NCBI GenBank assembly: GCA_003054655.1
Contig: QAYZ01000015.1
Location: 248,001 to 312,000 of the forward strand
Reading direction: 5' to 3'
DNA: 64,000 bases
Source of the DNA: Spartobacteria bacterium LR76
GTDB taxonomy: Bacteria; Verrucomicrobiota; Verrucomicrobiia; Chthoniobacterales; Terrimicrobiaceae
Of this stretch, positions 5,353-30,452 are shown one piece after another. Each line of letters begins with the position of its first letter. The stretch's first letter is position 1. The translations under genes and the position numbers were made by a program. The notes beneath the pieces are model-generated. The model did no database searches and was not told the origin of the DNA. It saw only the letters and a list, made by a program, of their open reading frames with translations.

Positions 5353-5403
5353 GCAAAAAACGGGACTGAGGGGAGCCTCTCATCGGGGGACGGGAGACAT
5401 CGA

Positions 5404-5422
5404 CTGTCAAAAGGTTGTTTCA
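5404..5422 (+). promoter_or_regulatory. Weak candidate Pho box
   Basis: The divergent pit/alkaline phosphatase region contains CTGTCAA followed, after a 4-base spacer, by TTGTTTC. The first half matches the PhoB half-site consensus CTGTCAT at 6 of 7 positions. The second half matches poorly (about 3 of 7). It sits upstream of the phosphatase start at a plausible distance. The call rests on the neighbours' function as much as on the sequence. Confidence 0.25.
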
Positions 5423-5471
5423 ATATTCCTTTAGCATTTCGACCATGGGGGTAGTAAAGATCGACCTTCCG

Positions 5472-6770: not shown

Positions 6771-6829
6771 CGCAGAGTTCCCCTGCGTACCCAGCGAAGC
6801 GGACTTCCCGGAACCGGCTTTATCAAAGA

Positions 6830-6861
6830 AAAACGCCGCCCTTTTGCGAAGGCGGCGTTTT
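6830..6861. terminator. Bidirectional Rho-independent terminator
   Basis: A perfect GC-rich inverted repeat (AAAACGCCGCC, 10-base loop, GGCGGCGTTTT) flanked by A and T runs on the two sides. It lies between the convergent ends of the alkaline phosphatase and glutamine synthetase genes and can stop both transcripts. Confidence 0.85.
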
Positions 6862-6885
6862 CTTGAATCGGTATCTTACCAGCGA

Positions 6886-7905: not shown

Positions 7906-8102
7906 ATTTTTCTTCGAGTGTCTTGTTTTGAGCGGACCGCGCCGGAGGGGACCGCATAAGTGTTGTTTTTTACCCTTTATCCGTACGGCGCACCTATTGA
8001 AGAGCAGGAACGATGCCAACCCTCAAGAAGATCCGGTAGCCAAGGGAAAATCCCCGGTGAGGACTTGCAGCCAACCCGGCCAGCGGCGACGATAAGAGCC
8101 GA

Positions 8103-15440: not shown

Positions 15441-15484
15441 GCTCCCTTTCGTGTGCTCATGGCGCGGGAGCCGGTCTTTCCGAG

Positions 15485-15583
15485 AGGCGGTTTCCTTATT
15501 CGGGTGTTCGTAGCCGAGAAGCTTGTCGCACTTCATATTCCCAATAGTTGGCATCCGCCCTGCTATGGTTGGGCCATGCGTTC
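15485..15583. repeat. 99-bp diverged duplication, copy A
   Basis: This 99-bp stretch aligns without gaps to 15980-16078 (offset 495 bp), at roughly three quarters identity by eye. Shared blocks include TTTCCTTATT, GGTGTTC, CACTTCAT and CATCCGCCC. It covers the last codons and 3' flank of the minus-strand gene at 15563-15892. Copy B has the same relation to the gene at 16058-16249. Confidence 0.8.
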
Positions 15584-15892
15584 CGAACGTCCTCCCGCCT
15601 CCAACAAAAGAGCTTCTATATCTGAAGCCAAGTTCAAATTGCCGCCAAACCATATAAAAGGCGTCGAAACATGAATTGCAACCTCGATACTATCACCTAT
15701 CTCCTTGCAGGTTACTCCAACATTCGCCTTCCCGTTCGAAATCATCCAGCCAAAGCTTCTATCGTCAAAAATGAGATCTTTTGACAACTCTTCTCCGACC
15801 AAAGGAACTACCTGATACCCCTTACCCCTCACGCGAACCAGCCACAGGTCGAATAACGAGTCCTTGTCGCATTTAAGTCTCTTCAACGTCAT
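15563..15892 (-). CDS. Orphan small protein in RHS-remnant region
   Basis: A 109-residue soluble protein of unknown function (starts MTLKRLKCDKDSLFDLWLVR, ends GGRSERMAQP). It is acidic, without signal peptide or membrane segment, and lower in GC than the flanking core genes. It lies on the strand downstream of an RHS-repeat fragment, where immunity proteins to polymorphic toxins usually sit. An immunity-type role is inference from position only. Its C-terminal 'ER-x-x-Q' end and 3' flank are duplicated at the next small gene. Confidence 0.55.
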   Translation of the reverse strand: MTLKRLKCDKDSLFDLWLVRVRGKGYQVVPLVGEELSKDLIFDDRSFGWMISNGKANVGVTCKEIGDSIEVAIHVSTPFIWFGGNLNLASDIEALLLEAGGRSERMAQP

Positions 15893-15979
15893 AACACCTT
15901 CATTGATCAGGTTTAGGATTGGGAGTATTTAGCGAGAACACGCCCTGAATCACGACTTTTACCGCCCAACACAGAAGAC

Positions 15980-16078
15980 AGGCGCTTTCCTTATTAAGGT
16001 GTTCCTAGCGAAAAAGCTTGGCACACTTCATCCCACGATTAGCCAACATCCGCCCAGCTATAATTGATCCGTGCGTTC
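15980..16078. repeat. 99-bp diverged duplication, copy B
   Basis: Second copy of the ungapped 99-bp duplication, covering the 3' end and flank of the small gene at 16058-16249. Both copies encode the last residues of the preceding minus-strand gene (ERMAQP in A, ERTDQL in B). The duplication unit therefore seems to be a gene 3' end plus its spacer, as expected from stepwise addition of toxin/immunity cassettes by homologous recombination. Confidence 0.8.
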
Positions 16079-17011: not shown

Positions 17012-17057
17012 TGGAGCCATGGGGATTCGAACCCCAGACCTCCTCAATGCCATTGAG
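17012..17057. repeat. Left attachment repeat (displaced tRNA-Ala 3' part)
   Basis: A 46-bp sequence identical to 30380-30425 inside tRNA-Ala(GGC). It covers the tRNA from the anticodon stem to the discriminator base. Outside the repeat the two sites differ completely. This is the expected left-behind copy after integration into a tRNA gene. On the tRNA strand it is followed by TTTTTCGATTC rather than CCA. Confidence 0.92.
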
Positions 17058-17139
17058 CAGCCCCACCCTCTAGAATCCCGGATTTCCCTCTAGGATTCGC
17101 ATTCATTCGTTCACAAGAATTGCCATTCTTGTTGATTTT

Positions 17140-18333
17140 TTGGGCACTATAGGTCACTTTCCCCTTGTGCCAAAAAGGGCAACATTTGAACCAGTTCGGG
17201 TGGATGGACGGAAGAGCGGTTGGAAGATCGACATCCCCGCTCGCTACTCGTCGACCGGAAAACGCGGGCGGTATTTCTTCACCACGAAGACAGAGGCGGA
17301 GAACTTCGCCGACGATGAACGTACCCGGGTGAAGAACTTCGGAATGCAGGGGGGCGGAACGCTCTCCCCTTCCCAATCCGAGCAGGCGCTCGCGGCATTC
17401 TCGGCACTGTCCCCGCATGGCGTAACCTTGAATGAGGTCGTACAAGATTGGCTTTCCAGGAAGCGCGACCGGGAACAGTCTGTCCCCTTCTCTCAAGCCA
17501 AGGACAAGTTTCTTGCCCATCTCGCCAAGAAGAAGATCAAGGGCCGCCGTGTCAGTGGAAAATATCAACAGACCGCAAGACAGGTGTTCGGTCGTTTTCC
17601 CTCGCTGTCCGACAAGATGCTTTCCGACATCGACGCCCGGACATTGGCGCTGGCATGTGAAGGAATGACGCCGAGCGTAAAATTCACCGCCCTGGCCGTT
17701 CTTTCCTCGCTCTTCAACTGGTCCGCTGAAACTCCGCGTCATTGGGTAAAAGCCAATCCGGCCAAGGATGTTCCCCGCGATGATCTTGGAGCGCGACGGG
17801 TCGATACGTTTTCGCCTGCCGATGTGAAAACGGTGCTCAAGACTCCAACCGACGACGATATCCGAAAATACCACGTCCTAGGATTCTTCGCTGGCATCCG
17901 CCCCGAGGAGCTGCCGCGAGTCCGAGAAGAGTTCATCAACTTGCCCGAGCGGGTGATTGTGCTGCCGCACGAGATCACCAAAACCGGAGTACGTCGAGTC
18001 ATCGAGATCAACGATACGCTTTTAGCGTGGCTGGAATGGTTCGCATCACGCAGCGTCCCACAGCCCGGCCCCATCATATCACCCGTAAATATCAGGAAGA
18101 GGCTCCGCGCCTTCCGCGAAAAAGCCGGAGTCGCATGGATTCAGGACGGCATGCGCCATTCGTATGCAAGCTACTGGCTCGCGATTCACAAGGACGAGCA
18201 TCGCTTGAGAGATAACCTGGGGCATCGCAGCGCAGATGAGCTTTGGGACCACTACCACAAGGCAAAGACCCAAAAGGAGGCGAAAGAATTCTGGAACCTG
18301 ACGCCGACGAACATTTTCGACAAATCAGAATGA
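17140..18333 (+). CDS. int: Tyrosine-type site-specific integrase
   Basis: A 397-residue recombinase with an SAM-like core-binding N-terminal region (about 80-200) and a catalytic C-terminus. Visible residues: Arg254 in FFAGIRPEEL, Arg339-His340 in GMRHSYASY, His362 in LGHRS and nucleophile Tyr372 in LWDHYHK. The usual His three residues before the second Arg is Asp here (DGMR), a variation worth noting. It should cut and join at the 46-bp att repeats, the left one ending 82 bp before the gene. The start is TTG 17140 or GTG 17167; no good Shine-Dalgarno is seen. Its TGA overlaps the next gene's ATG. Confidence 0.92.
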   Translation: MGTIGHFPLVPKRATFEPVRVDGRKSGWKIDIPARYSSTGKRGRYFFTTKTEAENFADDERTRVKNFGMQGGGTLSPSQSEQALAAFSALSPHGVTLNEVVQDWLSRKRDREQSVPFSQAKDKFLAHLAKKKIKGRRVSGKYQQTARQVFGRFPSLSDKMLSDIDARTLALACEGMTPSVKFTALAVLSSLFNWSAETPRHWVKANPAKDVPRDDLGARRVDTFSPADVKTVLKTPTDDDIRKYHVLGFFAGIRPEELPRVREEFINLPERVIVLPHEITKTGVRRVIEINDTLLAWLEWFASRSVPQPGPIISPVNIRKRLRAFREKAGVAWIQDGMRHSYASYWLAIHKDEHRLRDNLGHRSADELWDHYHKAKTQKEAKEFWNLTPTNIFDKSE

Positions 18334-18950
18334 CCGCCCCATCAAGCAAAGACGCTCAGTCTAGAATTGAAGTGCATTACAAGGCCATAAATACCTTGTG
18401 TGGCATTCATCCGGATGACGCGCATTTGGCGATTTGTGCAAAGCTCAAACATAAAAACACAAATGTGACGCTCAAAAAAATCGATGACCTAATGATTGAT
18501 GCTCTGGTTTGCATGGAAAACAATCTTACGTCAGTTCAGAAGGACTACGAGCAACGCAGACGAAAGGACGATCCCGCGTTTGCCAAAAAACTAGACCGAG
18601 CGCGGTATGCCACCCGCAAGCCAACATTCAGCCAAGCCGAATTGTTTGTACTACAGAATTGGCGCAGAATTTGCCCCGCTGTCAAAAAAGGGGTTCCAGT
18701 CACGGACGAGCAAAGGAAAGCCCTGTGCGAACTTGCGGAAAAAGTTCCAGGGCTACGGGAGTGGTCGCCAGATGCAGCGGGTGCGTTTATGGAGAGATTT
18801 GGGCTATTTCGGTCCGCAGTAGATGTCCGAGAGTCCTTTAAAAAAACATGGCAACGCCTAGGGCTAAAATCCTTCGACAAAAAGAAAATCGTAGGGCTCG
18901 TTGAGACATCGAACGGATATTGGCGCTTTATTGAACCCGGCGACCTGTAA
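18330..18950 (+). CDS. Hypothetical protein coupled to integrase
   Basis: A 206-residue basic, helical protein starting MTAPSSKDAQSRIEVHYKAINTLCG. The gene starts at an ATGA overlap with the integrase stop, so the two are translationally coupled. No domain was recognised. Residues 70-110 (EQRRRKDDPAFAKKLDRARYATRKPTF) are strongly basic and could bind DNA. The GC content is lower than that of the integrase. A role as an integrase accessory or element-specific factor is only a guess from position. Confidence 0.7.
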   Translation: MTAPSSKDAQSRIEVHYKAINTLCGIHPDDAHLAICAKLKHKNTNVTLKKIDDLMIDALVCMENNLTSVQKDYEQRRRKDDPAFAKKLDRARYATRKPTFSQAELFVLQNWRRICPAVKKGVPVTDEQRKALCELAEKVPGLREWSPDAAGAFMERFGLFRSAVDVRESFKKTWQRLGLKSFDKKKIVGLVETSNGYWRFIEPGDL

Positions 18951-19012
18951 GCTTATTTCAGTTTTTGTCCCCACAGAGAGGGAATTCACTGTATAAATAG
19001 GTAGGCACTCCA

Positions 19013-19210
19013 ATGAGTGCCAACGATCTACTGACAAAGCAGGAAGCCGCCAATCTCTTGGGTGGCAGTAAGCCGGTATCAATATCCTACATCGATCAAC
19101 TTCTCGCTCGCCGCAGACTGCCGAAGGTACGCCTATCCTACAAGGTCTGCCGCATTCCACGCGCTGCGGTTGAAGAGTTCATCGCCAAACGCACCGAGGT
19201 CGCCCGATGA
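19013..19210 (+). CDS. Excisionase-like HTH protein
   Basis: A 65-residue protein with the MerR/excisionase-type helix-turn-helix layout: LLTKQEAANLLGGSKPVSISYIDQLLARRRLPKVRLSYKVCRIPRAAVEEFIAKR. The pattern 'eaA-lL ... yid-Ll...g.lP-vr...r-r-i.raaveeFi' is that of helix_turn_helix_17 proteins, which include Xis-like recombination directionality factors. It lies downstream of int on the same strand and overlaps the next gene by 4 bp (ATGA). Confidence 0.78.
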   Translation: MSANDLLTKQEAANLLGGSKPVSISYIDQLLARRRLPKVRLSYKVCRIPRAAVEEFIAKRTEVAR

Positions 19211-19407
19211 GCGCCCCCGGAAAACGAAGCAGGCCGACCACTCGCAATGATCGGCCCGCTAATAGCTTCGAGTGTGAAGAAAAGCTAACGCCTGCCCGCG
19301 AAAAGCTCAAGCGGATTTCTCAGAATCTCCGCGCACGTCACGCGGTATCGGGAGCATCGTATTACCTTCGGCTTGCCGATGTTCTGGAGGCCGCTGCACT
19401 AAAATGA
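19207..19407 (+). CDS. Small hypothetical protein
   Basis: A 66-residue basic protein (MSAPGKRSRPTTRND...) with a helical C-terminal half. It overlaps the end of the excisionase-like gene (ATGA) and has AGGT in its ribosome-site position. No family was recognised. Coding is supported mainly by coupling and spacing. Confidence 0.5.
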   Translation: MSAPGKRSRPTTRNDRPANSFECEEKLTPAREKLKRISQNLRARHAVSGASYYLRLADVLEAAALK

Positions 19408-19471
19408 GAATCCTGCGCAGGCTGCGCAGCCTGATTAGAACCATCGCGCCGTTCCTGGGAGTATCCCCGAA

Positions 19472-20917
19472 ATGAAGCCCGCCCTTTCTCATCCAGGCCG
19501 GGAGAGCGCCGTCATTGGGCGACTCGCCGCACAAGGAAGACTTCCGAGGTATAATCCCGATTCCTTCCTTGCTCGGGAGTACCGCGCTATCGTCACCGCC
19601 GCGGCGAGCATCGCCCGCGATGGTCGGGAGCCCCACATCATCGCCATCAATGAGCGAATCGAGGCCAACCCGATGCTTTGCCGGGAGATGCAGGAGACGC
19701 TTGGCGATAGCTGGGCAACTGCGTGGCAGGCGAGAGCTGATTCTAGTCTGGCGTTTGGTGCTGAGGGGCCAATCCTAGACTGCCTCCGCGATCTTGAAGA
19801 GGCAGCACTAGAGCGCGAATCCCAAGAGGCAACAAAGCAACACGCCGAGGGCCACATATCCCGCTCCGAACTCCTCGACCGCCTAACCGCGATAGAGAAA
19901 TCCGGACGCTCCGATTCTGGCGACGTGTCAGACCTCTTTGCCGATGTCGGTAAGATCCTTTCCGCCGGACTGGACCCTGAGCGCCCCACCGTTGCCGAGT
20001 ATGCCACCGGGTCTTTCCTGTTCTACGCGGGGCGGCTCAACGAAATTCACGGCGAGCCGGGAACGGGCAAGAGTAATATCAATCTCCTCGCCACCATGAC
20101 GGTACTGGCGACCGGGCAACCTGTTCTCTACATCGACCCCGAGGACAGCGCCGAGGCGGCAATCCGCCGTCTTCTCGGCTTCGGATGCCCGGAGGATGTC
20201 ATACGGGATCACTTCAAGCACACGCGATGCCCAGCGGGAGACGACTACGCGCGCCTTGCCTCCTGGGCGACAGCAAATAAACCTCCTCTTGTCATCGTGG
20301 ACGGTCTTGCTGAGGCACTCGCCGCCGATGGATTGAGCGAGGACAAACCCGAGGATTTCTTGAAGTTCTGCCGGGAGCGCCTGCAACCATTCACCGATGC
20401 AGGGGCGGCAGTCGTTCTCTCCGATCACGTCGTCAAGAGCGCCGAGAACCGGGGCCGATGGTCACGGGGGACAGGGGCGAAACTCGGGCGATATGATGGC
20501 GTTTCGTATGCCGTGGAATTGGGTCAAGGATACTCCCCGACCGTTGAGGGTTTTGTCCGGCTGTCGGTCGCCAAAGATCGAAACGGAGGCGTGGGCGTTG
20601 TTGGCCAGTCTGTCACCGAGATTCATTTCTCACCGATGGAAGCAGGACTAACCCGCGTCACATTCAAAAAACCAACTGGAAAGAGCGAGGGGCGATTCCT
20701 TCCTACCGCGCTTATGGAGAAGGTTTCGCGGCAACTCGAAACCGTACCAACCTCATCGGCCCGCGATCTTCGAGCACTAGGCAAATCGGATTTCGTTGAT
20801 AGAGCCATCCGAGAACTCGTTGCCATGGGCAATCTCCAAGTCACTCCGGGCGGCATTGGAAGGTCGAACAAATACAAGCTCATCAAGCCGTATCGGGAGG
20901 ACAACTCCGATGTTTAA
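19472..20917 (+). CDS. RecA/AAA-fold ATPase with DnaB-N-like domain (replication protein candidate)
   Basis: A 481-residue protein. Residues 10-85 resemble the DnaB helicase N-terminal domain (ESAVIGRLAAQGRLPRYNPDSF...YRAIVTAAASIARDG). The RecA-like ATPase core follows, with Walker A GEPGTGKS at 194-201, YIDPED near 220, Walker B LVIVDG at 273-278 and AVVLSDHVV as a sensor-like strand, as in plasmid RepA/AAA_25 helicases. The last 80 residues look like a winged helix. It could be a replicative helicase or loader for an excised form of the element. The iteron-like ACCGTG array begins 4 bp after its stop codon. Confidence 0.82.
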   Translation: MKPALSHPGRESAVIGRLAAQGRLPRYNPDSFLAREYRAIVTAAASIARDGREPHIIAINERIEANPMLCREMQETLGDSWATAWQARADSSLAFGAEGPILDCLRDLEEAALERESQEATKQHAEGHISRSELLDRLTAIEKSGRSDSGDVSDLFADVGKILSAGLDPERPTVAEYATGSFLFYAGRLNEIHGEPGTGKSNINLLATMTVLATGQPVLYIDPEDSAEAAIRRLLGFGCPEDVIRDHFKHTRCPAGDDYARLASWATANKPPLVIVDGLAEALAADGLSEDKPEDFLKFCRERLQPFTDAGAAVVLSDHVVKSAENRGRWSRGTGAKLGRYDGVSYAVELGQGYSPTVEGFVRLSVAKDRNGGVGVVGQSVTEIHFSPMEAGLTRVTFKKPTGKSEGRFLPTALMEKVSRQLETVPTSSARDLRALGKSDFVDRAIRELVAMGNLQVTPGGIGRSNKYKLIKPYREDNSDV

Positions 20918-20920
20918 CAC

Positions 20921-21061
20921 ACCGTGCCCCTACCGTGTCCCAACCGTGCCCCGGACACGGTTGCAACCCACCGTGCCCCTGTGCCCCTCTCCCTTTAGGG
21001 AGGGGCACGGTCGGGCACGAGTGCGAGGCAGCAATTCAAACTCGAAACCTTGGGGCACGGT
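20921..21061. repeat. Iteron-like ACCGTG(CCCC) array, candidate origin or operator
   Basis: Seven ACCGTG hexamers lie within 141 bp. Four are on the plus strand, at 20921, 20932, 20943 and 20970; the first three are spaced exactly 11 bp apart. Three are inverted, at 20956-20961, 21006-21011 and 21056-21061. Most extend to ACCGTGCCCC. The copies around 20970-21011 face each other and make a strong hairpin (GTGCCCC...GGGGCAC with CTCCC/GGGAG inside). The position after the helicase-like gene and directly before the gene at 21071 fits an iteron origin or an autoregulatory operator. Confidence 0.7.
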
Positions 21062-21070
21062 CAGAAGCTA

Positions 21071-21331
21071 ATGAAACATCACGAACCACACGACGAACCG
21101 GAGAACTTGAATCTAGCTTTCCAGGTAGCACACCTTGAGCAGGAGCTTGCCAGCTACAAGCAGCGCACACGCGAGGCGATAGGCGATCTCGTCGGCGACG
21201 TAACCCAGTATGTGCGGGAGGCCGTGCACACCAAGGCCGGATACGTCCTAACTCAGGAAGTGTTGATCGACATCGACGAGCAACTAGCCGCACTCGATGA
21301 CACAATCATCCGGCGAGTGTTCAAGCGATGA
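21071..21331 (+). CDS. Small coiled-coil hypothetical protein
   Basis: An 86-residue acidic helical protein (MKHHEPHDEPENLNLAFQVAHLEQELASYKQRTREA...). Heptad-like spacing of Leu/Ala in residues 14-40 suggests a short coiled coil. ATG 21071 lies 9 bp after the last inverted ACCGTG copy, so the repeat array may control it. No family was recognised. Confidence 0.6.
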   Translation: MKHHEPHDEPENLNLAFQVAHLEQELASYKQRTREAIGDLVGDVTQYVREAVHTKAGYVLTQEVLIDIDEQLAALDDTIIRRVFKR

Positions 21332-21453
21332 ACCAGCCGCATCACCCCCGTATGAAGGAATCTCTTCCGAAAATTTCTCTAGGTCAGGTTCCGTCGAAGG
21401 CAGCCTGTTTTCGAGCGCACATCACCGTCCTTTTCTGAATCCGAACCATTGTC

Positions 21454-21918
21454 ATGAAACGTCAAAAATACGCCCACCCGCTCCGAGTTTATGCGGAGCA
21501 ATATCAAGTCAGCCTCTCCACGATAAAGCGATGGAGCGCCCGCGATCTCAACTTGGACGATCCGAACGCGATACGCTCGGAGGTACTCGTTCAGAAGCAC
21601 ATGCCCCCGAATATGCCTTTCAGCGACTCGGCAGGGACAGACAAGGCACTCGAACTCAGTAAGACCCTTCTCGCCGCCAAGGAAGTGATCAAATGGCTTG
21701 TGCCGAACTGCTATGACAGAGCCGCCGTTGAGGGGAGAGGATCGACCAGGGAGGAGGCTATTGCTGGGTACGAGGAGATGTTTTCCTTCGTGGTTGAGGT
21801 GTGCTGGAAAACCTGCGTCCTGATTCAACTGCAAGGACTCACCTTCGAGGCAGCGAGGGAGCAAGTGTTTACGGAATTTGACGCGAAGCTGGGGGCGACT
21901 GGCGATGCCGTTTCTTGA
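21454..21918 (+). CDS. HTH protein, terminase-small-subunit-like
   Basis: A 154-residue protein. The N-terminus KYAHPLRVYAEQYQVSLSTIKRWSARDLNLDDP reads as a helix-turn-helix (aeqYqVSlsTIkrW), followed by a helical region. The size and HTH-first layout are like phage small terminase or gpNu1-type proteins, which recognise DNA for packaging. This is a by-eye resemblance, and a transcription regulator is equally possible. The 3' end overlaps the next gene by 14 bp. No large terminase subunit is present in the element. Confidence 0.6.
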   Translation: MKRQKYAHPLRVYAEQYQVSLSTIKRWSARDLNLDDPNAIRSEVLVQKHMPPNMPFSDSAGTDKALELSKTLLAAKEVIKWLVPNCYDRAAVEGRGSTREEAIAGYEEMFSFVVEVCWKTCVLIQLQGLTFEAAREQVFTEFDAKLGATGDAVS

Positions 21919-22219
21919 TGATGCTGGCATTCCGATTCTGGCGGTGCCTCCAGCGGTGTACGAAGAGGAAGAATCCGAAGGTTCGAACGCTGGCCCCGAT
22001 AAATGGGATGCGCTGGCCGTGTATTCCCGGCTACTCGGGATGTGCTCTACGCCGGGTCAGATAGCAGCCGCGCAATATGTTTGCGGCATGGACAACAGGC
22101 GTCCCTGCGAAATCGCGTTATCGCTCCGTGTCAGCCGCCAAAGGTTCAATGCTTTGCGGCATTGGGCCGAAAAGCGCCTCTCTATAATCAAGGGGGGTGT
22201 TTACGAAGGAACCGCATAA
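21905..22219 (+). CDS. Small HTH protein, sigma-region-4-like
   Basis: A 104-residue protein. Residues 50-95 (STPGQIAAAQYVCGMDNRRPCEIALSLRVSRQRFNALRHWAEKRLS) look like the sigma-70 region 4 pattern of 'one helix - HTH': EIA-sLrVSrqrfnaL-hwA. Phage late-gene regulators often have this form. It starts at ATG 21905 inside the end of the previous gene and overlaps the next by 23 bp, so these three genes look like one transcript. Confidence 0.6.
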   Translation: MPFLDDAGIPILAVPPAVYEEEESEGSNAGPDKWDALAVYSRLLGMCSTPGQIAAAQYVCGMDNRRPCEIALSLRVSRQRFNALRHWAEKRLSIIKGGVYEGTA

Positions 22220-23423
22220 ACAAAGGCTCGGCGGACAATTCAGTTTACGCGGCGCGCATTTGTATATGCACGATCAATTGGAAGCTCGAAAAGCTGAAGC
22301 GATACCTTACACGGCGTTTCTTGAACAGAATGCACCGCAATCCAAGAACTTCGATGATCTCCTCGGCAAGTGTGATCTTGAGTTTGGGAAAAAGCACCCC
22401 TCTCGCGGGGTTTTTCAAATCGCACGGAGCCGCTACGACGCCGGGCAAATCATTCCGAAAAAGTTTCATGACATTATCGAATCCATCGGCACGGAAACTC
22501 CCAAAGCTGAAAGCACTCCCGCCCTTGCGGCTGAAGCAGCCAAGCCATTAACGCCGCCCGCCGTTGTCTCTGCTCCGATTGCTTCCACCCCTAGCAAGCC
22601 CGCCGCGAAGGCAATGCCCGCTCCTGTCGCTCCGGCTCCTGTCCGGGCAGAGCATCTTCCAAAGGTCAGCATGGCAACGCTTGGAAAGACGGTGAACGCG
22701 CTGATGACTGATCCCAATCCGAGTGTGCGCCAGCCCGTAATCGAAGGCATCCAGAAAGGACTTGAGGCAAGCAAGCTCATTCACCGCGCAGAATTCGACA
22801 AGCTGTCTCCTCAAGCAAAGATCGACTACATCCGGGGCGGCGGGAAAATTACAAACATGCTCGGCTTGGCGACGACCACCGCCGACAAGGAACAGCCCAA
22901 CAACGCCAAGCCGGTCTATGCGGCTGGCGAGAAACCGTCTGATGACATCGATTTCAGCTTCATCAGTGATTTCGTCGCGAAAAGAAAGCTGCGTCTTGAG
23001 TTCGAGGAGAACCGAGGGCTGACGTGTGACTCGTGGTTGGAGTGGATGCGCTTCCGTCATGCCTATTTCGCCAGCGTCGGCGGGACCACCGAGGAAATGA
23101 TGGGCCGGGCTATTGTCATTCCCAGCGTTGTCATCGAGTCGAAAAAGGAGGTCTACGACCGTGAAGAGAAGTGGAAGCGCCAGGACGCCTATTTCGTCGA
23201 GAAGCTTGCATCTCTCCGGGCCGAACTGGAGCAGGCACAGAAGCCCGGAAACTCCAGCGAGTGGGATTCACGCAGGCGTGAACGGGTTCCCCTCCTAGAG
23301 CGAGCCATCCAGCAAGCGACCTCCGATTGGCAGAACGTCCAGAAAAAGCGCGTCGACCACCACGCCACTGAGAACAGGCGGCGCGAGGAGCGATTCACCG
23401 CCATGCGCAAGGCTCTGTACTAA
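22197..23423 (+). CDS. Hypothetical protein with Ala/Pro-rich linker
   Basis: A protein of up to 408 residues in three parts: a folded N-terminal part (about 20-95), an Ala/Pro linker (about 105-155) and a charged helical C-terminal half ending in a long coiled-coil-like stretch (KEVYDREEKWKRQDAYFVEKLASLRAELEQAQ). No family was recognised. Its place directly before the tape-measure-like gene suggests a structural or assembly role, but this is inference. The start is uncertain: GTG 22197 overlaps the previous gene, while ATG 22266 gives a shorter protein. Neither has a clear ribosome site at normal spacing. Confidence 0.65.
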   Translation: MFTKEPHKQRLGGQFSLRGAHLYMHDQLEARKAEAIPYTAFLEQNAPQSKNFDDLLGKCDLEFGKKHPSRGVFQIARSRYDAGQIIPKKFHDIIESIGTETPKAESTPALAAEAAKPLTPPAVVSAPIASTPSKPAAKAMPAPVAPAPVRAEHLPKVSMATLGKTVNALMTDPNPSVRQPVIEGIQKGLEASKLIHRAEFDKLSPQAKIDYIRGGGKITNMLGLATTTADKEQPNNAKPVYAAGEKPSDDIDFSFISDFVAKRKLRLEFEENRGLTCDSWLEWMRFRHAYFASVGGTTEEMMGRAIVIPSVVIESKKEVYDREEKWKRQDAYFVEKLASLRAELEQAQKPGNSSEWDSRRRERVPLLERAIQQATSDWQNVQKKRVDHHATENRRREERFTAMRKALY

Positions 23424-23476
23424 TCCGAGAATACTTTCCGCTAGGAAAATCAGGCCCCAGCCTCTGAGGGGGATTC

Positions 23477-25528
23477 ATGCGCCGCGCTGGGCGGCGGCAG
23501 AGGCACCCAGCAAATTTTTTTATGGCTACTGAAGCTCGCCTAAAAGGCAAACTCACGATGGACGATTCGCAGTTCCACACTGCGTTGCGTCGATCCCAGC
23601 AAAGTGCAGCGCGATTTGCATCCACTGTCGGCAGGACGGTATCGGTTGCAGGGGCCGTTGGCTTTTCTGCGATGACAGCCGGAGCCGTGGCGACATCTGT
23701 TGCTCTCGGGGCATCGGTCAAACGAGCCTTGGAACTCGGGGGGAAGTTCAACGACCTGAAGAACCGCACGGGGGCGACAGTCAAAGGGCTTACGCTGCTT
23801 TCTACAGCGTTCGATAATGCAGGTATCGGTGGCGATCAACTCGGTGCGACCATCAATAAGTTGCAGAAGGCCATTGAGGACAACAACCCCGCAATCTCTC
23901 AGCTTGGCCTAAATCTGGAGGATCTGAAAAAGCAGGCTCCAGACCAGCAGTTGCTCGCAGTCGGGAAGCGTATCGCCGGTATCAAGTCACCTTCCGAACA
24001 GGCGGCAACCGCGATGGCGATTTTCGGCAAGACGGGTGGTCAGCTTCTCCAGGTCTTCAAAGACTCCGGGGCGCTGGACAACGCAAGAGAGGTGCTTGGG
24101 TCGATGCCGGAAATCCTAGACCGGAACGCCGAGAAGTTCGACGCACTCGACGATGCAATCGGCAACATCACGCAAAAGGTTGACGCCTTTGGAGTCGGCC
24201 TTGCGGACAAGGTAGCGCCCGCGCTCGACCCGATCTTGGGTAAGCTCCTGAAGATCGACTCGGCCAAAATTGGGCAAGGTGTCGGAGAGGACATCGTACA
24301 GGCGGGAAAGAACATCAAGGACGCGGTATCGGGCGCATTCGATGGAGAAGAGGTCAAGGCGGGCATGCTCAATGCCGCTGTACAGTTTGGCGGGTTCGTT
24401 CGCGATGCCGTGGTGGGTAATGCGAGCAAAATCAGCAGTGTCTTGCTCCGTGCCTTCAGTAGCCCGGTTGCCTTTCTGCAAGCCCACCTTGAGGCAAATC
24501 TTGCGAAGCTCCAGGCACGGGCTCAGGGCATCAATGTTGATCCCGTGAGCGACGCCGATAAGGCGCGCGCGGGGGCATACGAAAAGCAGATTTCCGAAAA
24601 GAAAGATCAGCTCAAGGCGACGGCGGAAAAGTACAAGGCTGGCGGGGCTGGCATGGAACTCACGGCAGAGGGCCAGGGAATGCTCATCGCGATGGATGAG
24701 CTAAAGAAATCCATCATGAACCTGACCGAGGCGCGGGGGGATATCGTCACCCGGATGAACAATTCGGCCATGTATGATCCCAATGAGATTTATAAGCGGA
24801 TCATGGCCGAGGGAGGGCCGAAGGTTGGCCCCGGTGATGGAGTTTCGATGAAGGGTCTAGCTGACGATCTGGACAAATCAGCGCGAGAGGCTGACACCCG
24901 CCTTCGCAACACGCTCTTTTCCTTGGTGAACAAGATTGCGCCGAACACCGTCAAAGCGGCCACGTCACAGAGCCAGGGGAGTGATAACACCCCATCGCCC
25001 TCCCCAGCATCGAGCGTAGCGCCTTCTACGCCCCCTGTTGCCCCCACAACGCCCCCTAGCAGCGCCGCTCCTGCTCCAGCGCCGACAGCAAGCAGCACGG
25101 TTGAGAGAGACGTGAACGGGCGACGCACGAAGATTTCAGGTGCGCGATACGGGAATCAGCTTGCTCCCGGCGGCATCGAGCGAGCCAGAAATCAACCTGC
25201 CCCATGGGAGAAACTGCGAAACTCTCCGGCTCCCTGGGATATCTACCGGAGCAGCCCTGCCCCCTGGGACTTGATGCGTAGCGATCCCGCCGTGCCGTCT
25301 CCGGTTTCACAGCCGAGCGTAAAGCCGCCCGGACGCCCTCGAATGACCACGGACGACGCGAGCCGAGAGAACAAGATCGTAGCGAGGTACGCGCAGAGCA
25401 AGGACAGCAAAAACGCGGAATCCGAGAAAGCGGCATCTTCCATGGCTCAAGACATCGCCATGATTCGCCAAGGCATGAACGTTATAACAGGCGGAGGTGG
25501 CGGCGGCGGAAAAGGCAAGGGCAAATAA
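23477..25528 (+). CDS. Phage tail tape-measure-like protein
   Basis: A 683-residue protein. After a basic leader, the text MATEARLKGKLTMDDSQFHTALRRS...FASTVGRTVSVAG...ALGASVKRALELGGKFNDLKNRTGATVKGL is that of phage tail tape-measure N-termini. AISQLGLNLEDLK...QLLAVGKRIAGI...ATAMAIFGKTGGQLLQVFKD is the TP901-type core. The middle is long and helical; the C-terminal part has a Pro/Ala linker and three 10-residue repeats (R-x-x-PAPW-x-x-x). ATG 23477 is chosen because GAGGGGG lies 6 bases before it. At under 700 residues it would fit only a short tail. No other tail gene is near. Confidence 0.8.
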   Translation: MRRAGRRQRHPANFFMATEARLKGKLTMDDSQFHTALRRSQQSAARFASTVGRTVSVAGAVGFSAMTAGAVATSVALGASVKRALELGGKFNDLKNRTGATVKGLTLLSTAFDNAGIGGDQLGATINKLQKAIEDNNPAISQLGLNLEDLKKQAPDQQLLAVGKRIAGIKSPSEQAATAMAIFGKTGGQLLQVFKDSGALDNAREVLGSMPEILDRNAEKFDALDDAIGNITQKVDAFGVGLADKVAPALDPILGKLLKIDSAKIGQGVGEDIVQAGKNIKDAVSGAFDGEEVKAGMLNAAVQFGGFVRDAVVGNASKISSVLLRAFSSPVAFLQAHLEANLAKLQARAQGINVDPVSDADKARAGAYEKQISEKKDQLKATAEKYKAGGAGMELTAEGQGMLIAMDELKKSIMNLTEARGDIVTRMNNSAMYDPNEIYKRIMAEGGPKVGPGDGVSMKGLADDLDKSAREADTRLRNTLFSLVNKIAPNTVKAATSQSQGSDNTPSPSPASSVAPSTPPVAPTTPPSSAAPAPAPTASSTVERDVNGRRTKISGARYGNQLAPGGIERARNQPAPWEKLRNSPAPWDIYRSSPAPWDLMRSDPAVPSPVSQPSVKPPGRPRMTTDDASRENKIVARYAQSKDSKNAESEKAASSMAQDIAMIRQGMNVITGGGGGGGKGKGK

Positions 25529-25531
25529 GGA

Positions 25532-25572
25532 AAAGCCCCGCCACGACCATTTCGGGCCGTAGGCGGGGCTTT
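25532..25572. terminator. Rho-independent terminator after the tape-measure-like gene
   Basis: A perfect 11-bp stem AAAGCCCCGCC/GGCGGGGCTTT around a 19-base loop that itself has a small GGCC-type pairing. It is flanked by A and T runs, 3 bp after the stop of the tape-measure-like gene and before the convergent HTH gene. It can act in both directions. Confidence 0.85.
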
Positions 25573-25586
25573 ATGCTGCCGGGCAG

Positions 25587-25793
25587 TTATCGTTTCGGAG
25601 ATCGGTGTGAGGCGTTCGGGTTGTACGTCAGCTCCTCCAGCGCCTTTTCAACGTCGCTCCAGCGATACCGGACGCATTTTGAACTGAGCTTGATAAACGG
25701 TATCAGCCCTTGCGCCTTGAGCGTGTTCACGTGGCGGACACTGACGTTCATCCGCGCAGCGACCTCTTTTATGTCAATAAGAGGCTCGATCAT
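25587..25793 (-). CDS. Excisionase/MerR-like HTH protein
   Basis: A 68-residue DNA-binding protein: MIEPLIDIKEVAARMNVSVRHVNTLKAQGLIPFIKLSSKCVRYRWSDVEKALEEL. This is the winged HTH pattern of helix_turn_helix_17 proteins (diKEvAarmnVSvrhVn.l...G.iP.ikls.k.vRyr..dvekale). It is last in a minus-strand set with two other genes (25806-26117 and 26114-26659), facing the forward block across a terminator. Such proteins serve as excisionases or small repressors. Confidence 0.75.
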   Translation of the reverse strand: MIEPLIDIKEVAARMNVSVRHVNTLKAQGLIPFIKLSSKCVRYRWSDVEKALEELTYNPNASHRSPKR

Positions 25794-25805
25794 CGGATTA
25801 CCGTC

Positions 25806-26117
25806 TCAATTATTCATCCATACCGCAACCCTTCTCCTCGTGTTGATTGTTTCGGTCGCCATCAATCGGAGGAAGGCGACGACATTGGAGGGCGCGCTTA
25901 AAAGGCGGAATGTTCGTTGACTGTGGTCATACTCCATATCGATGTCGAATCGGTAGCGCATGAACTCCAGATCGCGCTGGATGGTCTTTGTTGTAACTTC
26001 GAATTCTTCCGCCGCAGTCGAGCAGTTGAGCCGCTCTCCCCTTTGAAGGTCGCCTAGAATTTTTGCGATCCGTTCAACCGCAGGGAGCGCCCGACGCTGA
26101 ACAACGCCCCTTTTCAC
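25806..26117 (-). CDS. HTH_11/DeoR-type DNA-binding protein without sensor domain
   Basis: A 103-residue protein. Residues 12-70 (AVERIAKILGDLQRGERLNCSTAAEEFEVTTKTIQRDLEFMRYRFDIDMEYDHSQRTFRL) form the N-terminal winged HTH of DeoR/WYL-type regulators ('vttKTIqRDleflr...'). The usual WYL or sugar-sensing domain is absent, so this may be a minimal regulator. The GTG start at 26117 has a strong AAGGAGGT site and overlaps the upstream gene's stop by 4 bp. Confidence 0.75.
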   Translation of the reverse strand: MKRGVVQRRALPAVERIAKILGDLQRGERLNCSTAAEEFEVTTKTIQRDLEFMRYRFDIDMEYDHSQRTFRLLSAPSNVVAFLRLMATETINTRRRVAVWMNN

Positions 26118-26659
26118 GCTGCCACCTCCTTACGCGCCGGGAATGGGTCATAGCTCGCCCACACCAAGCCCGCGTCGTCTTTCTGGAACTCCCATTTTCT
26201 GACCAACATTCTAGGCTTTTGCCTCATATCGTGTTCGTCGGCCTTACGTGCAGCCCTCTTGGCTTGCTTGAGACTGTCGAATCCACGTTCGCAGGCTTCG
26301 TGCTCTCCCACCCGCCCATGGTCGTAGATGTCGTCAAGGTATCCCTCCAGAATGGAATCCGTCATTTCCTCGACGGAGGTTTCCAGAATCTCCGCCATGT
26401 GCTCGATTCGGGCCATGTGTTTGCCGGAAATTGCGACATTCACCCGCTCCTCATCGCCGGACTTCGCCGCGTAGGCGGTTGCGATGAGCTTAGAAATCAG
26501 ATGATCCATTGTAAGGCCGTTCTTTCGGCCAAGCTCCTCGCCTCTATTCCACAATTCCAGGGACCAGTTACCGACATCGATAACGTTTCCCTCCGTGTCT
26601 TTGATGGTTACCTCGATGGTTTCAGCCTTTGCGGCTGCCTTCCGTGATTCTCTTTTCAT
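26114..26659 (-). CDS. Hypothetical protein with leader hairpin
   Basis: A 181-residue, charged, cytoplasmic protein (starts MKRESRKAAAKAETIEVTIKDTEG). The centre (about 70-110, VNVAISGKHMARIEHMAEILETSVEEMTDSILEGYL) is helical. No family was recognised. It is coupled by a 4-bp overlap to the DeoR-type HTH gene, so it is probably part of the element's regulatory switch. It has no Shine-Dalgarno. A 16-bp stem with a U-run ends only 12 bases before its ATG, which could attenuate its expression. Confidence 0.65.
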   Translation of the reverse strand: MKRESRKAAAKAETIEVTIKDTEGNVIDVGNWSLELWNRGEELGRKNGLTMDHLISKLIATAYAAKSGDEERVNVAISGKHMARIEHMAEILETSVEEMTDSILEGYLDDIYDHGRVGEHEACERGFDSLKQAKRAARKADEHDMRQKPRMLVRKWEFQKDDAGLVWASYDPFPARKEVAA

Positions 26660-26668
26660 GTAATAACG

Positions 26669-26746
26669 AAAAAGCCTCAGCCGGAAGGCTGTAACCTTTC
26701 CCGCAACGGCACGACCCGTACGCAGTATCCGACTGAGGCTTTTTTT
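26669..26746. terminator. Long-stem bidirectional terminator or structured leader
   Basis: A 16-bp inverted repeat (AAAAAGCCTCAGCCGG at 26669-26684 against CCGACTGAGGCTTTTT at 26729-26744, with one G-U type pair) encloses 44 bases. These can fold into two inner hairpins, CGG/CCG around a 6-base loop and GGAA.GG/CCTTCC. Runs of A and T on both ends make it a two-way terminator in form. On the minus strand it sits inside the 5' leader of the gene starting at 26659, so attenuation is possible. Confidence 0.7.
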
Positions 26747-26872
26747 CTCGTTTCATGTTTTTACGGCGCTGGATTCGTGGTCCAGGGTGAGAATTGCCGA
26801 TCCGCTGTTACAGCAGCGAACGCCCGACCGATAGAACAGCCTGGGCGGCGATGTCAAGATTTACCTGCCGAG

Positions 26873-27109
26873 CTACTTTCCCGCATCGCTCTGTGCGCTC
26901 GTCCGATCCTCACCCATCGCGATTGCCCGGCGAATGTTGCGGGTTTCCTTCCGCCGTCTCTTGTACCAGAGGCGGAATGCGGTTTCGTTGATGTCCCACC
27001 CGCCGCGATTACCGCGAGGCTTGCAGGCCGGAAACTCGCCAGCTTTGGCAAATTTCTGAATCGTCCATTCCGCGTACCCGCTCACCTTCGCTGCCTCCGC
27101 GGTGGTCAT
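26873..27109 (-). CDS. Small HTH (excisionase-like) protein
   Basis: A 78-residue basic protein: MTTAEAAKVSGYAEWTIQKFAKAGEFPACKPRGNRGGWDINETAFRLWYKRRR. This is the usual excisionase HTH pattern (ttaEaAkvsGyaewTIqkfa..GefPack.rGnrggwdi.etafr.W). A GGAGG site lies 7-8 bases before ATG 27109. It is separated from the minus-strand trio by about 210 bp holding the long-stem structure. It may be the element's main directionality factor. Confidence 0.72.
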   Translation of the reverse strand: MTTAEAAKVSGYAEWTIQKFAKAGEFPACKPRGNRGGWDINETAFRLWYKRRRKETRNIRRAIAMGEDRTSAQSDAGK

Positions 27110-27324
27110 AGCGCCACCTCCGTAAAGCTCGTTATTGCGTTTAGTTCAGCGGCAACAAGATGGCCGCTCGACAAGGAGGAGTGTGGCATTCTGAAATTCA
27201 GCCCCGGGAGGCCGTCTATCTCGTGCGTCGATGTTGTTATTTTCATCCCTACAGTGTAGCACCGCCAATGACCGCCAACCGGGGAAACTGAGAAAATCCA
27301 GTTTCAAAGATGGCAAGGTAATCT

Positions 27325-28245
27325 ATGCTCCGCTGGATGTCAGCGCGTGACCTTCGCACAGTAGAATCCGTTATAGCTCTGCCAGCTGGAGAGCATTCCT
27401 GGGTTGAATTCAAGGGGGTAAAAGGGAAAGATTTTTCAGATAATAACGTCTGCCAGAACTTCGTTTTGTCGTTGGCCAAGGAACTTTGCGCGTTCGCGAA
27501 CACCGGAGAAGGCCTCCTTATTCTCGGTATTGATGAAAACAAGACGACCAAAGAACGAACCGTAAGTTGTGGCGGGATTCCGCAAGTCAAGGGCCGGGAG
27601 AGAATGCAGAAATGGCTCCAGGATTCTCTGCCGCATCTCCTCGATCCCGCGTTGGTTGATTTTGATGTTTACGAAATATCAGATGGCGACGGGCTTGAAG
27701 CTGATCGAGCACTGTTCATCATCGAAATACGCCTGAGTTCGATTGCTCCTCATCAAGTAAGAGGGACGGGATGCTACTACGGAAGAGTTGCCGACAAAGC
27801 CCAACCTCTACCGCATCAATTTGTGTCGGACATCATGAATCGCTTCGTTCATCCCAAATTGAAGATCGTTTTTATATACGACGAGTTCACCAGCCCTCAC
27901 GAGCTAATCGTGAACGTGATAAACATTGGACGCGTTCCGGCAAAGTTGATCAATATTCGCCTTTGGATTTGGCCAAAGGAGAGGGTTATAATGTCAGGGG
28001 ATCGAGCTGTATCCTTCATCGAAGGAAAAGAGTGGCGCACCCTTGAGGCCGAGTTTCGCCCAATTCTACCAAGGCGTCATACAGAATGGAAAATCTCACT
28101 TCTCAGCCTGGGATATAAGGGGGTAAGGGTGAAGTGGGACATATCGGCAGATAGCGCACCTATTCTTAGTGGAGAACAGGAGATCACTGAATCAGACCTG
28201 ATGCGCAAGATTGATAGAAACTCCAATTTGGCGGCCCTCGAGTAG
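27325..28245 (+). CDS. AlbA_2/Schlafen-type putative nucleic-acid-binding protein
   Basis: A 306-residue protein. The N-terminal 150 residues match the AlbA_2 (Schlafen) pattern: VIALPAGEHSWVEFKGVKGKDF..., ELCAFANTGEGLLILGIDENKTT..., then IIEIRLSSIAPHQVRG..GCYYGRVADKAQPLP. Catalytic-type acidic residues sit in the WVEFK segment. The C-terminal half is beta-rich and unrecognised. Bacterial members occur as regulators, RNases or parts of defence islands. A good AAGGT site precedes ATG 27325. The GC content is lower than the core, as expected for cargo of a mobile element. The exact role is unknown. Confidence 0.78.
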   Translation: MLRWMSARDLRTVESVIALPAGEHSWVEFKGVKGKDFSDNNVCQNFVLSLAKELCAFANTGEGLLILGIDENKTTKERTVSCGGIPQVKGRERMQKWLQDSLPHLLDPALVDFDVYEISDGDGLEADRALFIIEIRLSSIAPHQVRGTGCYYGRVADKAQPLPHQFVSDIMNRFVHPKLKIVFIYDEFTSPHELIVNVINIGRVPAKLINIRLWIWPKERVIMSGDRAVSFIEGKEWRTLEAEFRPILPRRHTEWKISLLSLGYKGVRVKWDISADSAPILSGEQEITESDLMRKIDRNSNLAALE

Positions 28246-28380
28246 CTTCTCGAACGCCTCAGGTGACTCCTCTTTGATCCGATTGGCGTCCGATCCTGAG
28301 GCGTGGAGCAAGGCCTCAACGGAGCAGGACACACAAGAATGTATTGACTGACTTCCTGCGACTTTGTTAATCCGCCGAAC

Positions 28381-28677
28381 ATGATCCTACATCCATGTTC
28401 GTGCGGGTCGTTTCGAGTTTCCACGGGAAGCTCTCTCGACAAAACAAATCAAGCAGGAGAAACCGGATTCATTTACTGTCTGGATTGCGGGCGAATTTTC
28501 GGTCTCCACCCCAAAATGCTTCAAACCAGGGAGGCGGCTGGCGCTCTCTGGAATCGACGGAGAAAACAGGAGGTCGCGAGGAACTGGAAACCCATGCGTC
28601 AAACTGCCACCTGGGCTACATGGAGCGCATCCACGAATGGCGCGAGGTGCTCAGGTCGGAGGCGTAGCAGATCTTAG
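28381..28677 (+). CDS. Lar-like zinc-ribbon protein
   Basis: A 98-residue protein. HPCSCGSFRV...FIYCLDCGRIFG gives a C-x-C / C-x-x-C zinc ribbon, followed by REAAGALWNRRRK. The combination 'CpxCG...v.C..Cg...eeAi.lWNrR' is the hallmark of the Lar restriction-alleviation family of phages and mobile elements. Lar of the Rac prophage modulates type I restriction. The last 30 residues are basic and probably not part of the fold. The start is ATG 28381; the 3' end overlaps the convergent gene by 4 bp. Confidence 0.6.
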   Translation: MILHPCSCGSFRVSTGSSLDKTNQAGETGFIYCLDCGRIFGLHPKMLQTREAAGALWNRRRKQEVARNWKPMRQTATWATWSASTNGARCSGRRRSRS

Positions 28678-29207
28678 CTGCCCCCTCCTGCAGGTTTTAT
28701 CTCTTGACTTTGCTGTTCGCGGATAGTGCCCCAAGTGGAATTTAGATGCTTATCATTTTGGCGGACGCCTCTTTGCGCCACAAATCCAATTACGTAACAC
28801 CCTATGTTGGCACTCAGCAACGCTCCGACAGTACACTTCAACACGATGCAATGCCCTACGATAAACGCATCAATCCCCGTCTGATTTACGTGTTCAGCAA
28901 TTTCCCAAGGAGTGAAAACCACCCCTAGAGCCATACAAAATACTACCCCGGAAAAGATCCAAATAGGAGCAATCATTACTTTCCCCCACATGAAGAGGAA
29001 AAACCGTATTTTTTTGCCTCGATTTTCTGCTTCCCTGGCAGTTTCAGAATTATTCGGAGAATTTGAAACTATTTTTACAACAGTCTCCCGGTAGTTTTTC
29101 TCTATCTCCGATAATTTCGATCCATGATGCCCTCGCAGAGCATTTAATAAGGCCATCGTTGCTCCAAAAATACTCAGGAGCAACGCGATTAAAGTATAAA
29201 GGGGCAT
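28674..29207 (-). CDS. Membrane protein, second gene of a two-gene cargo operon
   Basis: A 177-residue protein with an N-terminal helix (MPLYTLIALLLSIFGATMALLNAL), a soluble charged stretch (28-65) and two further hydrophobic helices (about 70-100 and 118-150). It has a short polar C-terminal tail. No family was recognised. It lies 11 bp downstream of the 212-residue soluble gene on the same strand, so they are co-transcribed. A membrane protein paired with a soluble partner at the end of an integrated element is a form often seen in anti-phage systems, but no known system is matched. Confidence 0.7.
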   Translation of the reverse strand: MPLYTLIALLLSIFGATMALLNALRGHHGSKLSEIEKNYRETVVKIVSNSPNNSETAREAENRGKKIRFFLFMWGKVMIAPIWIFSGVVFCMALGVVFTPWEIAEHVNQTGIDAFIVGHCIVLKCTVGALLSANIGCYVIGFVAQRGVRQNDKHLNSTWGTIREQQSQEIKPAGGGS

Positions 29208-29218
29208 AGAGAGCTACC

Positions 29219-29857
29219 CTACGCGGGTAGCTCAGAACTTTGTAAACGTCCCCAAACAGAGTCAAACAGTTTTTCCTGTTGTTTCGCAATAAGCGGAGCA
29301 CGAAAATTCACCTTGGCTTTAATAACGTCCGCCGAAGAATCCAAATCAATTGGAGGATGCGGCTCCTCAATGCGGATCATTCTCGAGTCACAGACGATAA
29401 AGTGCGATATATTGGACGCGCTTTTTGCCAATACGTACTCAAAAACCTCGCCAAATCGACTCTTCATTGACGCGAGGGCTTTAGCGCAGTCAGGAGTCGC
29501 GTTAATGACGATCATTTGAATCTTTCCGCCGGTCTTTCGTAAGTTTTCCGCAGCTGCCGCAAAGGGCCGATCAAGGGCGCTCCAAAAGTTTCCGCCACTT
29601 CCAGTCAGAATTTTCACGCTCGTCAAGGACGTTAAAAGCATTGTGTGAGTAAGGCACAATGCATCAAAAAACGAGTCGTTCTTGAAGTCCTGATCGTATC
29701 CGCGATCAATCAGGGCAGCGACAAGCTCATGAAATGGCGGCGTGTCACTCAATTCGCACGCTTCCCTGTACTCACGAAGAGCATCACTGATCTTCGTGAA
29801 CGGAGATTGAGCGCTTTCGACACCAGTCGAGGCTTCCGGTTCAACGATTGCAGGCAT
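29219..29857 (-). CDS. Soluble protein of unknown function, first gene of a two-gene cargo operon
   Basis: A 212-residue cytoplasmic protein. Residues 85-212 look like a folded alpha/beta domain: GSGGNFWSALDRPFAAAAENLRKTGGKIQMIVINATPD..., FEYVLAKSASNISHFIVCDSRMIRIEEPHPPIDLDSS...., KLFDSVWGRL. The alternation of strand text ending in 'FIVCDSRMIRIEEPHPP' is reminiscent of PLD-like effector domains, but no HKD motif is present and I make no assignment. It is followed after 11 bp by a membrane protein gene. Both are AT-richer than the core genome. Confidence 0.65.
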   Translation of the reverse strand: MPAIVEPEASTGVESAQSPFTKISDALREYREACELSDTPPFHELVAALIDRGYDQDFKNDSFFDALCLTHTMLLTSLTSVKILTGSGGNFWSALDRPFAAAAENLRKTGGKIQMIVINATPDCAKALASMKSRFGEVFEYVLAKSASNISHFIVCDSRMIRIEEPHPPIDLDSSADVIKAKVNFRAPLIAKQQEKLFDSVWGRLQSSELPA

Positions 29858-30376
29858 GTTTTTCGAAGGGTTTTGTGAATATCCTGTATGTCAACAGCAG
29901 GTTTTTGCGAAAAAGACCGCACTTTTCCATGCGAACACGCATTTGGACTCGCATTTCGAGGCGAGAGTCAAAATATCAAAGTGTTCATTCGTTCTACGGG
30001 ATGGAACGAACGGTTGCGTGGGAGAAATTGCAAAAATCAGCGAACGAGGCACGAACTTTCAATCCGCTCCTCGATGGAGGTCTGGATTCAGGAATCATAC
30101 TCATAGCCGACAAGCTGAACGTACTTGTAGCTACAGAAAGGTCAATCAGCGAACAACTGAAAACTGCATTTTCTGGAGTCCGGGCGTCTGGACTAGTCTG
30201 GATTCAGACTGAAACTGGTTTCAAATTTCCAAGAACTCAAAAACATTCCAGACGTCTGGAATTCCGATTTTGCACCCGGTGCAAAATAGCTACCTCGGGG
30301 AGATTTCAAGGCACCAATGCGGCACCATGGAAAACCTTCATCCACACTCAGCCAGCGTAAGTCACTGAAGCTGAAG
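29858..30376. other. Gene-poor right end of the element with palindromes and repeated motifs
   Basis: About 520 bp without a convincing gene; the open frames here have no family likeness and odd composition. It holds the 12-mer GTCTGGATTCAG twice (30080 and 30196), further GTCTGGA copies at 30186 and 30254, and two adjacent palindromes (30245-30262 and 30267-30287). It ends at the tRNA gene. Sites of this kind next to an att site may bind integrase arms, excisionase or a repressor. Confidence 0.55.
30245..30287. repeat. Two adjacent palindromes near the right att site
   Basis: ATTCCAGACGTCTGGAAT (30245-30262) is a perfect 18-bp palindrome. Four bases later, 30267-30287 is a 21-bp inverted repeat, ATTTTGCACC, one central base, GGTGCAAAAT. 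Both are perfect. They lie about 95-135 bp from the right attachment repeat and could be operators or recombination accessory sites. Confidence 0.65.
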
Positions 30377-30452
30377 TGGTGGAGCCATGGGGATTCGAAC
30401 CCCAGACCTCCTCAATGCCATTGAGGCGCTCTACCAACTGAGCTATGACCCC
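30377..30452 (-). tRNA. tRNA-Ala (anticodon GGC)
   Basis: A 76-base cloverleaf on the minus strand: acceptor GGGGTCA paired with TGGCTCC, including the G3-U70 pair that identifies tRNA-Ala; D-arm GCTCAGTTGGTAGAGC; anticodon arm CCTCA-ATGGCAT-TGAGG with anticodon GGC; T-arm around GGTTCGAATCC; and encoded CCA. It reads alanine codon GCC. Its 3' part is the integration site of the adjacent element and was restored by the element's own 46-bp copy. Confidence 0.96.
30380..30425. repeat. Right attachment repeat within tRNA-Ala
   Basis: 46 bp identical to 17012-17057. It spans discriminator base to anticodon stem of the intact tRNA-Ala. Together with the left copy it defines a 13,368-bp insertion unit. 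Confidence 0.92.

Follow-up and report, generated by a model that had tools for sequence, protein, structure and literature searches.

Why should a mobile element that lacks a recognisable set of virion genes hold the gene for a phage tail ruler? This question is raised by an open reading frame (ORF) at 23477..25528 on the forward strand of the window, the 64,000-nucleotide stretch of the Spartobacteria bacterium LR76 genome that was analysed here. An earlier note on this DNA had seen in the ORF the N-terminal and core text of phage tail tape-measure proteins (TMPs) and had proposed that the element either hijacks a helper phage and supplies its own tail-length ruler, or has reused the protein for another task.

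The ORF is intact, encodes 683 aa when read from 23477 or 668 aa from 23522, and resembles its neighbouring genes in codon-position G+C. A profile search, which the note had suggested as a check, was significant for five PHROG families, all named 'tail length tape measure protein': phrog_9483 (E=1.6e-12, over residues 16-286), phrog_8462 (3e-11), phrog_2276 (3e-10), phrog_9570 and phrog_8125. In Pfam and NCBIfam no TMP hit was obtained, so that the curated tape-measure models are silent and the related PHROG families score. An HMM built from phage relatives scored the protein at 1.6e-73, and tblastn against phage genomes returned annotated TMPs, including that of Verrucomicrobia phage P8625 (25%, 2e-10). 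TMPs of prophages in the same family are 34-44% identical over about 240 residues, and relatives in genomes of the same family and order are mostly at 25-44% identity. Single-protein scans of IMG/VR and GTDB contigs found nothing; the IMG/VR relatives were obtained with an alignment as query instead, and the best 80 look like phages where this can be judged. The alignment with phage TMPs begins at residue 16, so that translation may in fact start at Met16 (23522); the Shine-Dalgarno sequence is better at 23477.

Structure prediction, also suggested by the note, gave the same picture. AlphaFold2 (24 sequences) modelled an all-helical N-terminal domain at about residues 67-210 (pLDDT 84-97), followed by long helices of lower certainty. 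A fold search of BFVD returned 41 viral models at 1e-3 or better, of which those with informative names were mostly TMPs, and the PDB gave no match. Clear alignment of the protein with phage TMPs is confined to about its first 300 residues, and the C-terminal part is Pro-rich and unique. At the level of sequence the ORF is therefore confirmed as encoding a siphophage-type TMP, and the earlier reading of its N-terminal and core text is borne out by the PHROG matches and the homology to the TMPs of P8625 and of prophages. Tail length follows TMP length at about 0.15 nm per residue, a rule by which a TMP of 668-683 aa would give a tail near 100 nm.

The TMP gene lies in a 13.4-kb element that spans 17012-30435 between tRNA-Ala repeats and is lower in G+C than its flanks. 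At its left end, 17012-17067 (56 nt) repeats the 3' part of tRNA-Ala at 30380-30435 with 93% identity, the first 46 nt being identical. From the repeat search and sequence reading we place attL at 17012..17057, as a 46-nt perfect copy, and from the repeat search and ARAGORN we place attR at 30380..30425, within the minus-strand tRNA-Ala(GGC) gene at 30377-30452. Just outside attL, a 102-nt direct repeat at 15482-16078 (75% identical, spacing 495) lies in a stretch of low G+C at 15-17 kb and looks like the remnant of an older mobile element.

About 80 bases inward of the left repeat begins a tyrosine integrase gene of 397 aa with a TTG start (17140..18333, +; phrog_1 at 2.1e-29 and NCBIfam Xer models). 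It is overlapped by an ORF at 18243..18950 (+), which probably starts in reality at about 18330 and to which no role is assigned, no significant Pfam, PHROG or NCBIfam match having been found. A small excisionase-like HTH protein of 65 aa follows at 19013..19210 (+); it is 48% identical over 56 aa to an HTH protein of L057, one of the related loci described below. The gene at 19472..20917 (+) encodes a replicative RecA/DnaB-like ATPase (helicase) of 481 aa, with matches to AAA_25 (1.8e-7), phrog_239 primase/helicase (8e-7) and phrog_19 DnaB-like (1.5e-6). Relatives of it were found in five further genomes and a virus contig, in several cases next to integrases and tRNAs. Beyond a gene for a small terminase (TerS)-like protein at 21454..21918 (+), sequence reading gives an HTH-containing ORF of 113 aa (21878..22219, +) without a PHROG match. 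Directly upstream of the TMP stands a 408-aa protein (22197..23423, +) of two domains with a Pro/Ala-rich linker between them; it has no significant Pfam, PHROG or NCBIfam match, and elsewhere it matches weakly and around the Pro/Ala-rich part only.

Downstream of the TMP, three short minus-strand genes at 25587..26659 encode an HTH protein, a WYL/DeoR-type HTH protein and a 181-aa protein, and form a probable regulatory block; the product of 25587-25793 is 45% identical over 55 aa to an HTH protein of L057 and that of 26114-26659 is 32% identical to the product of a gene in a related locus. A Schlafen AlbA_2 protein (27325..28245, +; PF04326 at 8e-12) is probable cargo or defence of the element, and two minus-strand genes of 177 and 212 aa at 28674..29857, which have no significant Pfam, PHROG or NCBIfam match, are probable cargo. 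Among the criteria for a satellite, the element shows att-bounded integration, its own integrase, its own replication gene and an incomplete set of virion genes.

The incompleteness of that set was examined closely. When the neighbours were scanned with Pfam, PHROGs and NCBIfam, no large terminase (TerL), portal, capsid or other tail gene was found. From about 100 prophage and virus loci with this TMP we clustered 132 protein families, and of their HMMs, run against the six-frame translation of the element, only that of the TMP cluster matched (1.6e-73). These HMMs recognised no tail chaperone (TAC) or hub beside the TMP, a search that a very divergent chaperone could escape. Since the TMP cluster was the only match, the earlier claim that no virion genes surround the TMP was right, with the addition of a packaging-type gene that had been missed, the TerS-like ORF.

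The TerS-like protein (154 aa) shares its N-terminal HTH with TerS. It is 35% identical over 48 aa and 38% over 52 aa to ORFs from two phages, each the immediate upstream neighbour of TerL and itself a phrog_57 TerS (5e-11 and 7e-11). Against true TerS proteins the E-value is about 1e-4, and the similarity spans an HTH of about 50 residues. A TerS-type gene is a typical tool by which satellites redirect packaging. In a PDB profile search with four sequences, RppC (6hlk) came first and four TerS chains next, all of them weak (E 0.09-0.5); the AlphaFold2 model of the protein alone was poor (pLDDT 48) and was set aside. Rpp is a protein of the phage-inducible chromosomal islands (PICIs) that binds phage TerS and redirects packaging (PMC6739421). 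From its sequence, the product of 21454-21918 is TerS-like or Rpp-like and a candidate redirector of packaging.

Several identities were considered for the element as a whole and rejected. TerL, portal and capsid of a tailed prophage are absent from it, nor does it own the set of capsid, portal and terminases that marks a cf-PICI. Membership of the PLE satellites of Vibrio cholerae was also set aside: a TMP is present, but TAC and hub genes were not found beside it.

Is the element alone of its kind? The order was searched in a sample of 144 genomes, where related loci are mostly on MAG contigs with genes called by a simple ORF caller. Most TMP relatives there belong to prophages, in which TerL and portal stand some 8 kb before the TMP on contigs long enough to include them. 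Four further elements (L057, L065, L068 and L075) combine a tyrosine integrase, a replication gene and a TMP; in PHROG and cluster-HMM searches none of them yielded a TerL, portal or capsid gene, or any of the usual phage neighbours of the TMP. L057 (9.9 kb, at tRNA-Arg, att repeat of 45 nt at 87%) carries a DUF5906-type primase-like ATPase, and L075 (8.7 kb, at tRNA-Val, att repeat of 43 nt) carries RepO plus a DnaC-like protein; in both, the att repeats at the tRNAs are clean. L065 and L068 have primase-type replication genes; their ends are not fully defined and they may be incomplete. L065 also has a TerS-like gene (phrog_57 at 1.3e-4) and a weak match at the tail-chaperone position (E 9e-4), and in L068 host genes (RNase R and a radical-SAM biotin-synthase-like protein) are met from 1.5 kb beyond the TMP. 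The satellite TMPs are 544-683 aa long, within the phage range of about 450-900 aa; a loss of hydrophobic segments was tested for and not found, these too being within the phage range. A siphophage prophage (L063/L169) resides in genome G041 alongside the L057 element; its TMP differs from that of the element, the two lengths in this genome being 566 and 798 aa.

Other loci from these searches were judged separately. L168 (G066:C174, 1-10448) is an integrase-replication-TerS element with a 782-aa protein in the position of the TMP. Since this protein matches no TMP by PHROG or hhalign, L168 was not counted; the protein may be a divergent TMP or something else. L076 was rejected as a contractile-tailed prophage by gene order, and L086, L099, L110, L120, L122 and L130 were rejected since TerL and further phage genes are present; in these six the TMP stands about 9 kb before TerL, an unusual order with opposite-strand blocks. 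Beside attL of L075, a truncated integrase start (L075:7291-7556), 92-98% identical to 15986-16066, marks the former presence of a second, related element at this tRNA-Val. In the virus contig L023 (IMGVR_UViG_3300007965_000005, 2044-8025), the tail end of a prophage abuts a small integrase-replication element, with two divergent integrases of the same family back to back (5172-6518, -, and 6433-8025, +), an arrangement that resembles tandem insertion of prophage and satellite into a shared site.

Whether the TMPs of the five elements descend from one acquisition was examined with an IQ-TREE analysis of 50 TMP N-terminal domains. The L068 TMP pairs with a prophage TMP (100/99), that of L065 with a virus-contig TMP (97/94), and that of L057 falls inside a supported group of 11 (98/91) whose other members are phages; the TMPs of the window and of L075 stand apart. 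The five satellite TMPs require five changes on the tree, four of which are forced by supported branches, and a single clade is rejected (p-AU 4e-6, or 1.3e-4 without the long-branched L075). The tree thus points to at least four separate captures of a TMP by these elements. Since the TMPs do not form one clade, this suggests selection for a TMP in such elements. As a control, portals were sought in the same genomes. The 26 matches included no clear intact orphan comparable to the TMP elements among those examined, which sit with head genes or are fragments, except L178. There (L178:2584-4332, in G119) an intact portal gene of 582 aa lies on an 11-kb contig without another recognised head gene.

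Taken together, we consider it probable that the element is an integrated phage satellite which builds chimeric tails on a helper siphophage. Read directly from the DNA are a tRNA-Ala-integrated island with an integrase and a replicative ATPase, a TerS-like gene and an intact TMP gene; the working of the system is what we infer from them. Upon infection or induction by a siphophage, the element would excise and replicate, and its TerS-like or Rpp-like protein would steer the large terminase of the helper to the element DNA. The satellite TMP would then replace that of the helper, which would provide tube, tip and fibres. The tails of the resulting particles would be chimeric, and the satellite would determine their length and perhaps also how DNA is ejected. 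The element may thereby gain freedom from a helper TMP with which it is incompatible or which is being attacked, and possibly also preferential tailing of satellite particles. Of the two explanations in the earlier note, hijacking of a helper with a ruler of its own is thus favoured over reuse, because of the att-bounded integrase-replication island, the TerS-like gene, the recurrence of such elements, the independent captures and the PLE precedent. On the other side stand the failure to find helper genes, the lack of a TAC or hub, the divergent C-terminus of the TMP and the assignment of TerS on a short HTH. Neither a phrog_15 TerL nor a portal of this phage group occurs in the genome of the window; any helper would be external or of another kind.

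The TMP could alternatively be a look-alike which, outside particles, poisons or titrates the tail assembly of the helper (chaperone, tip or tube), thereby shielding the host. Attack on tail assembly is an established strategy of satellites and prophages (PMC11364771), the phage TMP is the target of Rta in PLE11, and retention of the N-terminal domain with a divergent C-terminus, as in the window, would suit such a role. We regard it as unlikely, since homology to phage TMPs extends along almost all of the L057 and L068 proteins (40% over 569 columns and 37% over 531), as expected of working rulers and not needed in a poison. The lengths of the satellite TMPs also fit a ruler, and a satellite in need of tails would harm itself.

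Still less likely is that the gene is useless, left in a decayed prophage or brought into a satellite by chance recombination. Orphan fragments of phage genes do occur, as in the degenerate portals of L179, L180 and L182, and MAG assembly could join fragments, a point that bears on L065 and L068 with their undefined ends. However, the TMP ORF is intact with a codon-position G+C like that of its neighbours, the att ends are in good condition, 13.4 kb leaves no room for the remainder of a prophage, and there are five elements with separately captured TMPs. Reuse of the TMP for a task outside the virion, such as a membrane-active or superinfection-exclusion protein, would draw on the hydrophobic segments that TMPs carry but is very improbable, since no neighbouring gene hints at such a task and the repeated company of integrase and replication genes, joined in two elements by a TerS-like gene, fits particle formation.

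If the satellite does build such tails, the element would be a minimal system for testing the benefit of owning a tape measure. More tentatively, and with confidence a little short of even, we propose that Verrucomicrobiota hold a convergent class of tail-ruler satellites with hardly more than two virion-related genes, a TerS-like packaging redirector and a TMP newly taken from local siphophages. On that view, replacing one structural protein would suffice to give a satellite a tail of its own, and the choice of which particles are tailed would fall to the TMP instead of the capsid.

The source family of the TMP is that of the Verrucomicrobiota siphoviruses (P8625 and prophages such as L009-L014 and L058-L074), which, unlike the element, have sets of head and tail genes; in these, wherever the contig is long enough, TerL and portal precede the TMP by about 8 kb. 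Gram-negative PICIs of the EcCICFT073 type resemble the element in having an integrase, a replication gene, an Rpp/TerS-type protein and an incomplete virion set (PMC6739421); in the open-licence literature, however, no TMP is reported for them, and their regulatory genes are not matched in the element. The cf-PICIs and the Streptomyces satellites Mulch and Flayer also supply part of the virion themselves, but they bring capsid and packaging genes (PMC10690885), whereas the element has no capsid, portal or large terminase.

All well characterised satellites had been believed to borrow the tails of their helpers (PMC12987554); chimeric tails are now known in one satellite family, PLE. There the TMP of the satellite enters virions and is needed for transfer (PMC12987554, Nature 2026): PLE without it lose 96-99.9% of transfer, and the PLE11 TMP shortens otherwise phage-made tails by about 10 nm (PMC12987554). 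Putative tmp genes have also been noted in Vibrio PLE-like elements and cf-PICIs (PMC12987554). PLE1, PLE4 and PLE11 and the element are alike in being integrated with a TMP gene of their own. PLE uses helper head proteins, a use that for the element we only presume. The helper of PLE is a contractile-tailed lytic phage, whereas the TMP of the window is of siphophage type; PLE carries TAC with its TMP (plus the hub BhuB in PLE11), whereas the element has no recognisable TAC or hub. The element also differs in its Verrucomicrobiota host, its tRNA site and its integrase and replication genes. It therefore departs from the PLE precedent in host phylum, tail type, gene content and element family. 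Since four further elements appear to have captured TMPs independently, the making of hybrid tails may be widespread among such parasites, and the repetition of this capture in another phylum, with siphophage-type TMPs and without recognisable chaperone or hub genes, points to a general strategy.
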